Part shown: in pieces, positions 32,572 to 55,285 of the stretch
How the letters are laid out: the number at the start of each line of letters is the position of its first letter
Position numbering within the stretch: position 1 is the stretch's first letter
Virus record (IMG/VR): IMGVR_UViG_3300008108_000033
Coordinates: 16,754-80,753 of that record
Origin: a virus
Direction: 5' to 3' (one strand)
Length of the DNA: 64,000 nucleotides
The notes under the pieces: model-generated
What the model was told of the DNA's origin: nothing
What the model saw: only the letters and a program-made list of their open reading frames with translations
Database searches by the model: none
Translations under genes and position numbers: made by a program

Positions 32572-32580
32572 CTATAATAG
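32572..32580 (+). promoter_or_regulatory. CTATAATAG motif, putative promoter -10
   Basis: An exact copy of the 9-mer also found at 18083, 43818 (reverse) and 55385. It ends inside the first base pairs of the hairpin at 32579-32604. If it is a promoter, transcription would begin in or just after the hairpin and give a very short leader for the GT9-like gene. Confidence 0.35.
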
Positions 32581-32613
32581 GGGCAGAGGAATATCTCTGC
32601 CCCTATGTTTTTT
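32579..32613 (+). terminator. Rho-independent terminator overlapping the next start codon
   Basis: A perfect 10-bp stem (AGGGGCAGAG at 32579-32588 with CTCTGCCCCT at 32595-32604) has a six-base loop and is followed by ATG then six T residues (32608-32613). This has the form of an intrinsic terminator for the gene ending at 32556. The ATG right after the stem is the first codon of the GT9-like gene, and its only nearby purine-rich ribosome site (AGAGGA) lies inside the stem and loop, so the element could also block translation of upstream-initiated transcripts. Confidence 0.75.
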
Positions 32614-39390: not shown

Positions 39391-39436
39391 AATATGCCTT
39401 TCTAATATTATTTAGTTGCTTTTACATATATATTTC

Positions 39437-39868
39437 ATGCAATTCAAAGAATGGCTTCAACAAAATGAGACAGCTGGAGATAGTTGGTTCGATCCAACAG
39501 CACAGCCAATACAATGGCTTTTGCGCGCTCAAATAAATGGTGCGCCACTACCGGGGGTCATTGATTTGGCAGATTTTCCTCCGGGAAGTATTAAAAATCC
39601 ATATTTAAATGATTTACTTGCTAAATTAGCACGGTACGCCAAAAAAAAGGGAAATTACAGCCCAGATAAAATTAATTACAGATATAAAAATGAATCGGCA
39701 ATACAACAAAAGTTATTGAAATATTATTTAAAGTTTAAACCCAAAACGCCAAGACCTCCTGAATTTAAAGACGGCCCTGACACGTATACCAATGCTGGCT
39801 GGGATGCCGTTGGAGAACCGGATACGGGTCAGAGGGCCACCTTTAAAGTCCTACCTCACTACACTTAA
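39437..39868 (+). CDS. Uncharacterised protein starting MQFKEWL
   Basis: 143 residues from the ATG at 39437; an in-frame TTG lies upstream at 39416. The short start (MQFKEWLQQNETAG) is like those of many small proteins of large T4-like phages. The rest is helical with basic patches (KLARYAKKKGN, KLLKYYLKFKPKTPRPP) and a Gly/Asp/Tyr-rich end. No Shine-Dalgarno is visible. Function unknown. Confidence 0.5.
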   Translation: MQFKEWLQQNETAGDSWFDPTAQPIQWLLRAQINGAPLPGVIDLADFPPGSIKNPYLNDLLAKLARYAKKKGNYSPDKINYRYKNESAIQQKLLKYYLKFKPKTPRPPEFKDGPDTYTNAGWDAVGEPDTGQRATFKVLPHYT

Positions 39869-40161
39869 TCGCCTAGACTTTCATCGTCATCGTCTTCGTC
39901 GTCCCAGTCTTCGTCGGCGTCGTCGTCGTCGTCTTCCCATTCGTCGTCGTCTTCATAATCGTCTTCATCTTCGTCGTCGTCGTCTTCATCCTCATCGGGA
40001 TCTTCCCATTCGTCGTCTTCTTCCTCGTCTAACTCATCTTCATCATCCTCGTCATCCATCCACTCCTCTTCCCAGTCATCATCTTCATCGTCTTCTGGGT
40101 ATACAGCAGCATTGATAACGGTATCAAGATAACGATCTTCAATCGATTCAATTATGTTCAT
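39865..40161 (-). CDS. Highly acidic Asp/Glu-rich protein
   Basis: 98 residues. After an ordinary start (MNIIESIEDRYLDTVINAAV), almost all the rest is Asp/Glu with scattered Trp and Tyr (for example DDEWEDPDEDEDD). Such extreme charge could mimic nucleic acid, bind cations, or act as a chaperone-like tail; the sequence does not tell which. The DNA is a long GA/TC-skewed stretch. The start codon is separated from its only strong ribosome site by a hairpin (see the regulatory entry), which supports that this frame is translated. Confidence 0.65.
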   Translation of the reverse strand: MNIIESIEDRYLDTVINAAVYPEDDEDDDWEEEWMDDEDDEDELDEEEDDEWEDPDEDEDDDDEDEDDYEDDDEWEDDDDDADEDWDDEDDDDESLGD

Positions 40162-40198
40162 GGCTATGGGGGGAAAATATTTCCCCCCTCTCCTTTCT
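40162..40198 (-). promoter_or_regulatory. Leader hairpin that would bring a distant Shine-Dalgarno to the start
   Basis: Read on the reverse strand, a full ribosome site AGAAAGGAGA (40198-40189) is followed by a perfect 9-bp hairpin (GGGGGGAAA with TTTCCCCCC, 40188-40168, three-base loop), six bases, then the ATG at 40161. Linear spacing is 27 bases, far too long; folded, it is about six. T4 gene 38 and gene 25 are known to use this kind of spacer hairpin. No U-run follows the stem, so it is not an intrinsic terminator. Confidence 0.7.
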
Positions 40199-40245
40199 GC
40201 TAATTAAAGTATTATATGTAGTTTAATAAAAATTCAAAAGCAAAT

Positions 40246-43343: not shown

Positions 43344-43808
43344 TTATCTATCAAAGTTTCTTAAAATCATCTTATAGTTATCCACGTCCTCGCGGCTTTT
43401 TTTGATTTGCTCCTCGTAGAATACTTCCATGTACCTTCTGTCCGGCTCGTCTAATAAAGGTACATGCGTGACAATCCTATCAGCATAATTAGCAACTACT
43501 TCTTGCTCCATGGCCAAGGCATACTGCAGCAATTCCTTGACATCATATGAGCATACATGAGGCAAATCTTCTATAAAACTTAAAAATTCTTTAAGATCCG
43601 CATCTAAACCCAAAAGCGCATTCTGGAACTCTAGAACATGCTTCATTTCACTTGAAGCTTCTTTTTCAAATAGTTCTTTATATTCTTCTCGGTGCGGGCC
43701 AGAAACTAAAGAGGCAGCCGCCAAATAAAAATGCATGTGCTTGCGTTCATTTCGCAAATCCTGCTGCATGATGTTAACAAATTGTGCATAATTTTCATTT
43801 TTCAGCAT
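43344..43808 (-). CDS. Ferritin-like di-iron protein
   Basis: 154 residues with AGGAGA six bases before the ATG, predicted as four helices. Helix 1 holds an E-x-x-x-x/H pair (LRNERKHMHFYLAAASL), helix 2 has E-A-S-S-E-M-K-H-V-L-E (E-x-x-H iron ligands), helix 3 has AMEQEVVANYADR (Glu) and helix 4 has FYEEQIKKSREDVDNY (Glu/Asp). This is the pattern of bacterioferritin/rubrerythrin-like proteins. It could store iron or detoxify peroxide, or be structural. It is followed by a virion-like gene 19 bases downstream. Confidence 0.75.
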   Translation of the reverse strand: MLKNENYAQFVNIMQQDLRNERKHMHFYLAAASLVSGPHREEYKELFEKEASSEMKHVLEFQNALLGLDADLKEFLSFIEDLPHVCSYDVKELLQYALAMEQEVVANYADRIVTHVPLLDEPDRRYMEVFYEEQIKKSREDVDNYKMILRNFDR

Positions 43809-53845: not shown

Positions 53846-55285
53846 ATGAACGCTAATGCACGTTTTTTGAATGAAGCAAGAGAATTAGAGACTCGTTGGA
53901 GCAAAACCGGTATTCTAAAGGGCATCGAAGACCCTTATGTCCGCTCTGCTACAGCAGTTCTACTAGAGAATCAGAGACTTATCAATGAAACAGCAACCGA
54001 CACATCCGACGTTGCTCAGTTCAAGAGAATCTCCATTCCTCTTGTCCGTCGTATCTATCCCCAGCTAATCGCTAACAAGATTGTTAGTGTGCAGCCCCTA
54101 CTCGGCCCAACCGGCTTGGTATACTACCTCCGCTTCCGTTATAGCTCCAACAAGGGCTATATGCAGGGCGCTTCCAACGACAGCGGCTTCCCCGCTGACG
54201 ATGTGAACTCCCTCCAGCAGAGGGCTAGTGGTGATGCCAATCTTGACATCTACTACTCCAGCCAGTTCGTCCAGAACGAGAAGACCCCTGACACCATCGC
54301 CGTTCCTAACGCGACCGTCAACATGGGTAACTTCCAACACACCCCGATTCTCGCGGGAACAATCACCGGTACTGTCTACCTAAACGGCACTGTCACACAG
54401 ACCTTCACCGTAGCCAGCAACGGCACCTTCACCTTCAATACCGTTTCCGGTACTGACCTCGCCACCAGCGGTTCACTAGACCTCAACACTGGCGGTTTCA
54501 GCCTAACTTGGAACGGCACTGCAGCCGGCCCTGTTTACTGCGTAGTCTCCTACGAGTACAACATGGAATGCAATCAGGACCTCCCTGAAATCAACCTAGT
54601 CGTTGAGTCAGAAGAGATCGCTGCCAAGACTCGCAAATTGAAGGCCGTTTGGTCCTATGAGGCTCAGCAGGACCTCCGCTCTCAGCACAATCTAGACGCT
54701 GAGGCTGAGTTGACCGCTGTTCTAGCTCAGGAAATCAACCTAGAAATCGACCGTGAGTGCGTTCAGGACCTTCGCCAGAACGCCGGTACTGTCGCTGCTT
54801 GGGACCTCGCTACCGCCCTTGGTGATACCATCAAGGAAAAGTATGAGTCTCTCTACGTGAAGATCGTTGAAGTTTCCAACGTCATCCACAGAAAGACCCT
54901 ACGTGGCGGCGCTAACTTCATCGTGACCTCACCTGAAGTTTCCTCAATCTTCGAGACAGCCACCGCAGGTTTCGCACCAGCTCCTTCTGAGACATTTACT
55001 AGCTCACTTGGTATTCAGTACGTCGGTACTGTTGCTAACCGCTATCGTCTCTACAAGGACCCCCTATTCCCAACCAACCAGTTGTTGATGGGTTATAAGG
55101 GCGACTCCTACATGGATTCGGGCTACTTCTACTGCCCCTATGTACCACTAACACAAACACCAGTTGTGCTAGATCCAGAGTCTTTCTGTCCGAGAAAGGG
55201 TATATTGACCCGCTACGGAAAAAAATTACTCAGGGAAGGCGCAAAGTTTTATGCGAGATTAAGTATCGCAAATTTCGTAGTTTGA
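53846..55285 (+). CDS. 23: Major capsid protein, gp23-like, with Ig-like insertion
   Basis: 479 residues with AGGAG seven bases before the ATG. HK97-fold features of gp23 are seen: N-terminal SATAVLLENQRLINE, then AQFKRISIPLVRRIYPQLIA, VSVQPLLGPTGLVYYLRF, VESEEIAAKTRKLKAVWSYE, EAELTAVLAQEINLEIDREC, GANFIVTSPEVSSIFETA, VGTVANRYRLYKDPLFPTNQ and a YFCPYVPLTQTP end. Residues about 165-235 (LAGTITGTVYLNGTVTQTFT) look like an inserted Ig/beta-sandwich domain not in T4 gp23. Strong bias for C-ending and CTA/CTC codons fits an extremely abundant protein. A terminator follows 30 bases downstream. Confidence 0.95.
   Translation: MNANARFLNEARELETRWSKTGILKGIEDPYVRSATAVLLENQRLINETATDTSDVAQFKRISIPLVRRIYPQLIANKIVSVQPLLGPTGLVYYLRFRYSSNKGYMQGASNDSGFPADDVNSLQQRASGDANLDIYYSSQFVQNEKTPDTIAVPNATVNMGNFQHTPILAGTITGTVYLNGTVTQTFTVASNGTFTFNTVSGTDLATSGSLDLNTGGFSLTWNGTAAGPVYCVVSYEYNMECNQDLPEINLVVESEEIAAKTRKLKAVWSYEAQQDLRSQHNLDAEAELTAVLAQEINLEIDRECVQDLRQNAGTVAAWDLATALGDTIKEKYESLYVKIVEVSNVIHRKTLRGGANFIVTSPEVSSIFETATAGFAPAPSETFTSSLGIQYVGTVANRYRLYKDPLFPTNQLLMGYKGDSYMDSGYFYCPYVPLTQTPVVLDPESFCPRKGILTRYGKKLLREGAKFYARLSIANFVV

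Follow-up and report, generated by a model that had tools for sequence, protein, structure and literature searches.

How would a ribosome find the start codon of a gene whose Shine-Dalgarno (SD) sequence lies 28 nt upstream of it? The question is raised by the gene for a small acidic protein in the window (by which we mean the whole 64,000-nt stretch of viral DNA analysed here, held in an 80,753-base IMG/VR virus record), and by the hairpin that sits between its SD and its ATG (Table 1). An earlier note on this DNA had described a ten-base ribosome site, followed at once by a perfect 9-bp hairpin with a three-base loop, six bases and the ATG, and had read the hairpin as a ‘spacer’ that brings the SD to the start, as in the leaders of T4 genes 25 and 38. 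The arrangement is real and was confirmed on the minus strand, with stem, loop and the six bases before the ATG all exactly as claimed; of the ten bases, nine match the SD and the tenth is a linker A, such that the spacing, given as 27 nt linear and about six folded, becomes 28 nt linear and 7 nt folded (A40189 plus AUAGCC) once this A is left out of the SD.

Table 1. Features of the acidic-gene leader and of the genes around it, in positions of the window.
Feature	Position	Strand	Remark
Convergent gene	39416-39868	+	
Acidic protein gene, 98 aa, 68% D/E	39865..40161	-	Syntenic in about 25 loci
Start codon ATG of acidic gene	40161	-	
ATAGCC (AUAGCC), unpaired 3' part of spacer, 6 bases	40162..40167	-	AAAAUU, of equal length, in L003
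Spacer hairpin GGGGGGAAA-UAU-UUUCCCCCC, perfect 9 bp, 3-nt loop	40168..40188	-	-14.8 kcal/mol
Hairpin 3' arm TTTCCCCCC	40168-40176	-	
Hairpin loop TAT	40177-40179	-	
Hairpin 5' arm GGGGGGAAA	40180-40188	-	
Linker A	40189	-	Between SD and hairpin
Shine-Dalgarno (SD) AGAAAGGAG	40190..40198	-	Identical in L003
Probable -10 element TATAAT	40211..40216	-	Same box in window, L003 and L002
HELGH-motif metallopeptidase-like gene, 558 aa	40246..41922	-	Directly upstream of acidic gene

The SD is a 9-base perfect complement of the common 16S tail CUCCUUUCU (the host's own tail may differ), and on the assumption of a host tail of this type its duplex with the anti-SD is predicted at -13.1 kcal/mol in the window and -15.4 kcal/mol in L003, the closest relative described below. 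The 17 nt before the ATG at 40161 contain no other SD, and neither ATG nor GTG nor TTG is found between the SD and this ATG. The N-terminus read from it is conserved (MNIIESIEDRYLD in the window, MTILDLIEERYLD in L003 and MNYFDMIDERYEE in L002), which, together with the lack of a closer start codon, marks the assigned start as correct; between window and L003 the acidic protein is 82% identical, with 29 synonymous changes among 72 same-residue codons. The HELGH protein upstream had no match in Pfam, PHROG or the PDB. A HELGH metallopeptidase-like protein followed by a protein of 60-130 aa with up to 80% D/E forms a conserved pair, seen in L002-L037 and in L004 (LR756511.1 533119-546648), which this phage group has in common with phages of the 500-kb class. 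We also note a gene for a ferritin-like domain protein (PF00210, E 7.5e-13) at 43344-43808 of the window, on the minus strand, beside a terminase-like gene.

Folding of the leader, a check proposed in the earlier note, gives the hairpin at -14.8 kcal/mol. Of 53,822 segments of 21 nt drawn from the two strands of the 80.7-kb record, none reaches this stability, and the 101-nt region around the hairpin has a fold z of -3.1 against dinucleotide shuffles. The corresponding hairpin of L003 (18 nt, 7 bp, -12.4 kcal/mol) is equalled by 2 of 61,300 sampled windows of the sister phage. Could the hairpin be a chance inverted repeat with no role? Perfect Watson-Crick stems of at least 9 bp with loops of 3-8 nt do occur elsewhere, albeit only 11 times in the 80.7-kb record; however, no other hairpin of at least 9 bp is equally stable at the 21-nt size, and the sister phage has one at the same position, in a different sequence and at saturated neutral divergence, all of which makes chance extremely improbable.

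Relatives were found by searching with the upstream HELGH protein. The closest by this protein are L003 (71% identity) and L002 (54%), with about 30 further IMG/VR loci and the 595-kb huge phage LR756511 beyond them, and an acidic ORF follows the HELGH peptidase in about 25 of those loci. Most have an ordinary SD at a linear 4-9 nt from the start (11 nt in one), as in the leaders AAAGGAG-CTTACC-ATG of LR756511, AAAGGAG-AACCATC-ATG of L020 and AAAGGAG-AACTTGTT-GTG of L029; L008 and the nearest outgroup, L002, have a short G-rich leader, which in L002 (TTGAGGGAAAAACATG) comes with neither the stem nor the extra distance. Among the relatives compared, the distant SD is found only in the window and L003, and the hairpin is present in both. 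The L003 leader reads AGAAAGGAG GGGGAGA TACT TCTCCCC AAAATT ATG, some 24 nt linear and 6 nt folded, with no SD nearer its ATG. The folded distances of 7 nt (window) and 6 nt (L003) fall within the linear range of the relatives. The earlier note had named, as an observation that would speak against it, related phages that lack the stem and still keep the distance; the stemless relatives instead have either the ordinary short spacing or the G-rich leader. A search for closer relatives via the upstream gene, the terminase and the downstream gene found only L002 and L003 to be close, one of genome contigs returned only distant peptidase relatives, in bacterial genomes and MAGs, and an exact-pattern scan of IMG/VR for the window hairpin returned none.

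The two stem-bearing leaders can be compared pair by pair. Counted from the base, the two stems share pairs 1-4, all of them G-C, and also pairs 6 and 7; at pair 5 the window has G-C where L003 has A-U, a compensatory double change, and pairs 8 and 9 are present only in the window, the L003 stem being shorter by two pairs, symmetrically on both arms. The loop differs too, UAU in the window and UACU in L003. At four-fold synonymous sites of the upstream peptidase gene, 69% differ between window and L003; these sites are saturated, and a neutral leader would therefore have been randomised, yet SD, -10 box, stem and 6-nt residual spacer have all been kept. The compensatory change for which the earlier note suggested looking in homologues is thus seen in L003, as one G-C to A-U exchange with a symmetric 2-bp change in length, set between the same SD and a residual spacer of the same 6 nt. 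We take this covariation as good but thin evidence for a stem, coming as it does from two stem-bearing sequences with one double change and one length change.

The same comparison bears on whether the hairpin might serve as the operator of an RNA-binding protein, or as a stabiliser of the mRNA 5' end, its position between SD and start being secondary. In favour of this, the probable 5' end of the mRNA is near, and leader hairpins are used by T4 gp43 and gp32 (PMC3014915). However, it is the sequence of stem and loop that has changed between the two phages, and the position and residual spacing that have been kept; unfolded, moreover, the acidic gene has no usable SD spacing, and the hairpin has no Rfam match. 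We consider a role of this kind quite unlikely.

A maximum-likelihood tree of the peptidase joins window and L003 as sisters (100/99) and places L002, which has no hairpin, as their outgroup; the simplest history is thus one in which the hairpin arose in the common ancestor of these two sister phages. Of the two histories that the earlier note had left side by side, a device ‘arisen’ or ‘kept’ here, the tree favours the former. The hairpin probably came about when a self-complementary tract was inserted in a ribosome site of the ordinary type, an event that we infer to have happened once, in that ancestor.

In the window, the hairpin can be extended by pairing of GG in the SD with CC before the ATG, for a gain of 1.8 kcal/mol; as modelled, this extension could make binding to the SD slower, although it is much weaker than the SD duplex. 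In T4 genes e and soc a hairpin keeps the gene off until it is opened, and an inhibitory hairpin of that sort, hiding part of the SD, would fit the two SD bases that are predicted to pair here. Against this, the 1.8 kcal/mol of the extension compares with -13.1 kcal/mol for SD:anti-SD pairing; the extension is absent in L003, where AAAAUU stands in place of AUAGCC; and inhibition leaves unexplained why the folded spacer equals the linear spacer of the relatives, and why a closer SD is missing. We therefore hold an inhibitory hairpin to be improbable. In the fold of the L003 leader alone, SD and start are both left accessible; when 35 nt of coding sequence are added, a coding-region fold is predicted at -17.0, versus -16.1 with the hairpin; co-transcriptional formation of the hairpin, or an elongating ribosome, would disfavour this competing fold.

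It can also be asked whether the hairpin ends antisense transcripts coming from the convergent plus-strand gene. Its plus-strand copy is followed by TCTCCTTTCT and is accepted by a lax terminator scan, but this tail is the mere complement of the SD, with at most three consecutive T; on the strand that carries the acidic gene, ATAGCC (window) or AAAATT (L003) comes after the stem, with no T-run, so that the intrinsic-terminator pattern (G-C stem and T-run on the transcribed strand) is found only as that lax match on the opposite strand. Moreover, the site lies ~300 nt past the plus-strand gene, beyond the entire acidic gene, and the stemless relatives have nothing similar. A terminator is accordingly a highly improbable explanation.

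Upstream of the SD by about 12 nt lies a TATAAT, conserved in the window, L003 and L002; a clear -35 element was not found. Between genes, the heptamer TATAATA is enriched about 8-fold both in the window phage and in L003, which suggests a promoter-like element and, with it, a short leader whose 5' end would lie just before the SD. Taking these observations together, we propose that the leader is very likely to be a ‘split’ ribosome-binding site, in which the hairpin folds the spacer away to leave an effective distance of ~7 nt; the comparison of leader sequences supports the interpretation first put forward in the earlier note. In this model, the mRNA would probably start just after the TATAAT, ~10 nt before the SD, and the 21 bases between SD and start would form a very stable local hairpin during mRNA synthesis; the 30S subunit would then pair with the 9-base SD and, with the hairpin kept out of the path, would meet a start codon that is effectively ~7 nt away, much as in the relatives of the gene. 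We infer, further, that the hairpin forms on the ribosome-bound mRNA, and that it may thereby raise translation.

How does this compare with T4? In gene 38 a stem shortens an SD-AUG distance of 22 nt to 5, and in gene 25 one of 27 nt to 11, with opening of the stems lowering translation (PMC3014915); the split ribosome site of gene 25 (Nivinskas 1999; Malys and Nivinskas 2009, as summarised in PMC3014915) is described in that same source as restricted to close T-even phages. As a control, the folding method used here recovers the known stems of both genes. The gene 38 leader has AAGGAG abutting AGAGGGGC-UUCG-GCCCUUCU, then AAAU and AUG, and is like the window in placing an SD beside a stable G-C-rich hairpin, with a short A/U-rich spacer before the AUG, and in distances near 22-28 nt linear and about 5-7 nt folded; it is unlike it in that the SD is AAGGAG, the stem includes part of the SD, the loop is UUCG and the product, a tail-fibre assembly factor, bears no relation to the acidic protein. 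Gene 25 shares with the window a stem that shortens the spacer and that is found in close relatives and not in distant ones, but it is a baseplate gene, with its SD inside upstream gene 26 and a weaker, A/U-richer stem; that stem has been shown by mutation and DMS probing, whereas the stem in the window is predicted from sequence. Shared ancestry with gene 38 or gene 25 was not found, and the acidic-gene leader would thus work like those of the two T4 genes without being their homologue. The acidic protein matched no family in PHROG or Pfam, so the device seen here, of the same kind as in T4, sits on an unrelated gene, as the earlier note had held.

A scan of IMG/VR for the pattern AAAGGAG - G4 - C4 - N6 - ATG gave 84 matches, with L003 among them. 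The largest group of convincing matches comes from a phage family of 39-aa genes, METPPPNWPFPTYKG (METPPPNWPFPTYKGNPLPK...; L055-L133 and L256-L293), whose leader runs TAAAGGAG, GGGGGC(U)-NNN-(A)GCCCCC, AUCAC or AUGAC, ATG, with G-C stems of 6 or 7 bp and variable loops: an SD-hairpin-ATG layout similar to that of the window, in an unrelated gene and phage group. An unbiased search by the upstream neighbour of this family recovered homologues without the hairpin (L289-L293), which have a short linear leader (GAGGGGGAGAC-ATG in L291). Intergenic hairpins in the region of the family are also found with the SD downstream of the hairpin, so that the original role of the hairpin may have been a different one, and we treat the family as a second candidate for a split site of this type. 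Compared by BLAST with named phages, the METPPP and METVRIPKN loci had no match. For G-run/C-run hairpins after AAAGGAG, the distribution of distances shows no clear family-level peak at 5-11 nt among the matches listed, in a test contaminated by intrinsic terminators, and we therefore make no claim of a general enrichment of spacer hairpins. A scan for the device in the called genes of both phages and of the family loci found nothing comparable (the best, at -8.4 kcal/mol, preceding an unlikely TTG), the called-gene list being one that misses small genes under longer antisense ORFs, the acidic gene included. We regard recurrence as a lead, not a result.

Several other hairpins came to light alongside these. 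A small gene, METVRIPKNVPSFEPLSVGRQ (L063, L073, L080, L082, L084 and L116), has the leader AAAGGAG-A-GGGGGU(6-nt loop)ACCCCC-AAUCCA-AUG, with a TAAGTA...TACTTA inverted repeat ahead of it; in a related group (L057, L066 and others) the stem is weaker, at 4 bp. A 61-aa family, MEIYLSHPVHGRKVA/MVIYLKHPIHG (L145-L245, e.g. L165:5696-5914), lies in a virion-gene operon and has AAAGGAG, a G-C hairpin, TTTC... and ATG. The layout is similar and could be that of an SD plus hairpin, but TTT comes directly after the hairpin of this MEIYL/MVIYL family, so that the hairpin may instead be a terminator, and we do not count the family as a case. In the window itself, at 32577-32606 on the plus strand (also G001 54947-54976), a 12-bp perfect hairpin (ATAGGGGCAGAG-GAATAT-CTCTGCCCCTAT) stands 3' of a TATAATA and is identical over 30 nt in the sister phage; its 3' arm reaches into the start codon of the gene that comes next (ATG at 32605), after which stands TTTTTT, and it is either a terminator overlapping the start codon or a leader hiding both SD and start.

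In the open literature searched, we found no spacer-hairpin split ribosome site beyond T4, where they are documented for two genes only; a clean case in an unrelated phage family is thus an addition to a rare known type. One consequence is practical: gene callers and ribosome-site models based on linear distance would treat the ATG at 40161 as lacking an SD and, if the element does recur, as the METPPP family hints, phage start-site prediction should allow for spacer hairpins. We offer only tentatively, and with some doubt, the wider idea that spacer hairpins are a recurrent element of phage leaders, evolved independently by self-complementary insertion and no mere T4 curiosity, which may gate translation on folding (through temperature or co-transcriptional timing). 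For the HELGH/acidic gene pair itself, the hairpin-free relatives have a linear spacing that equals the folded spacing seen here, which shows how such sites arise and provides a ‘natural experiment’ on the spacing rule.
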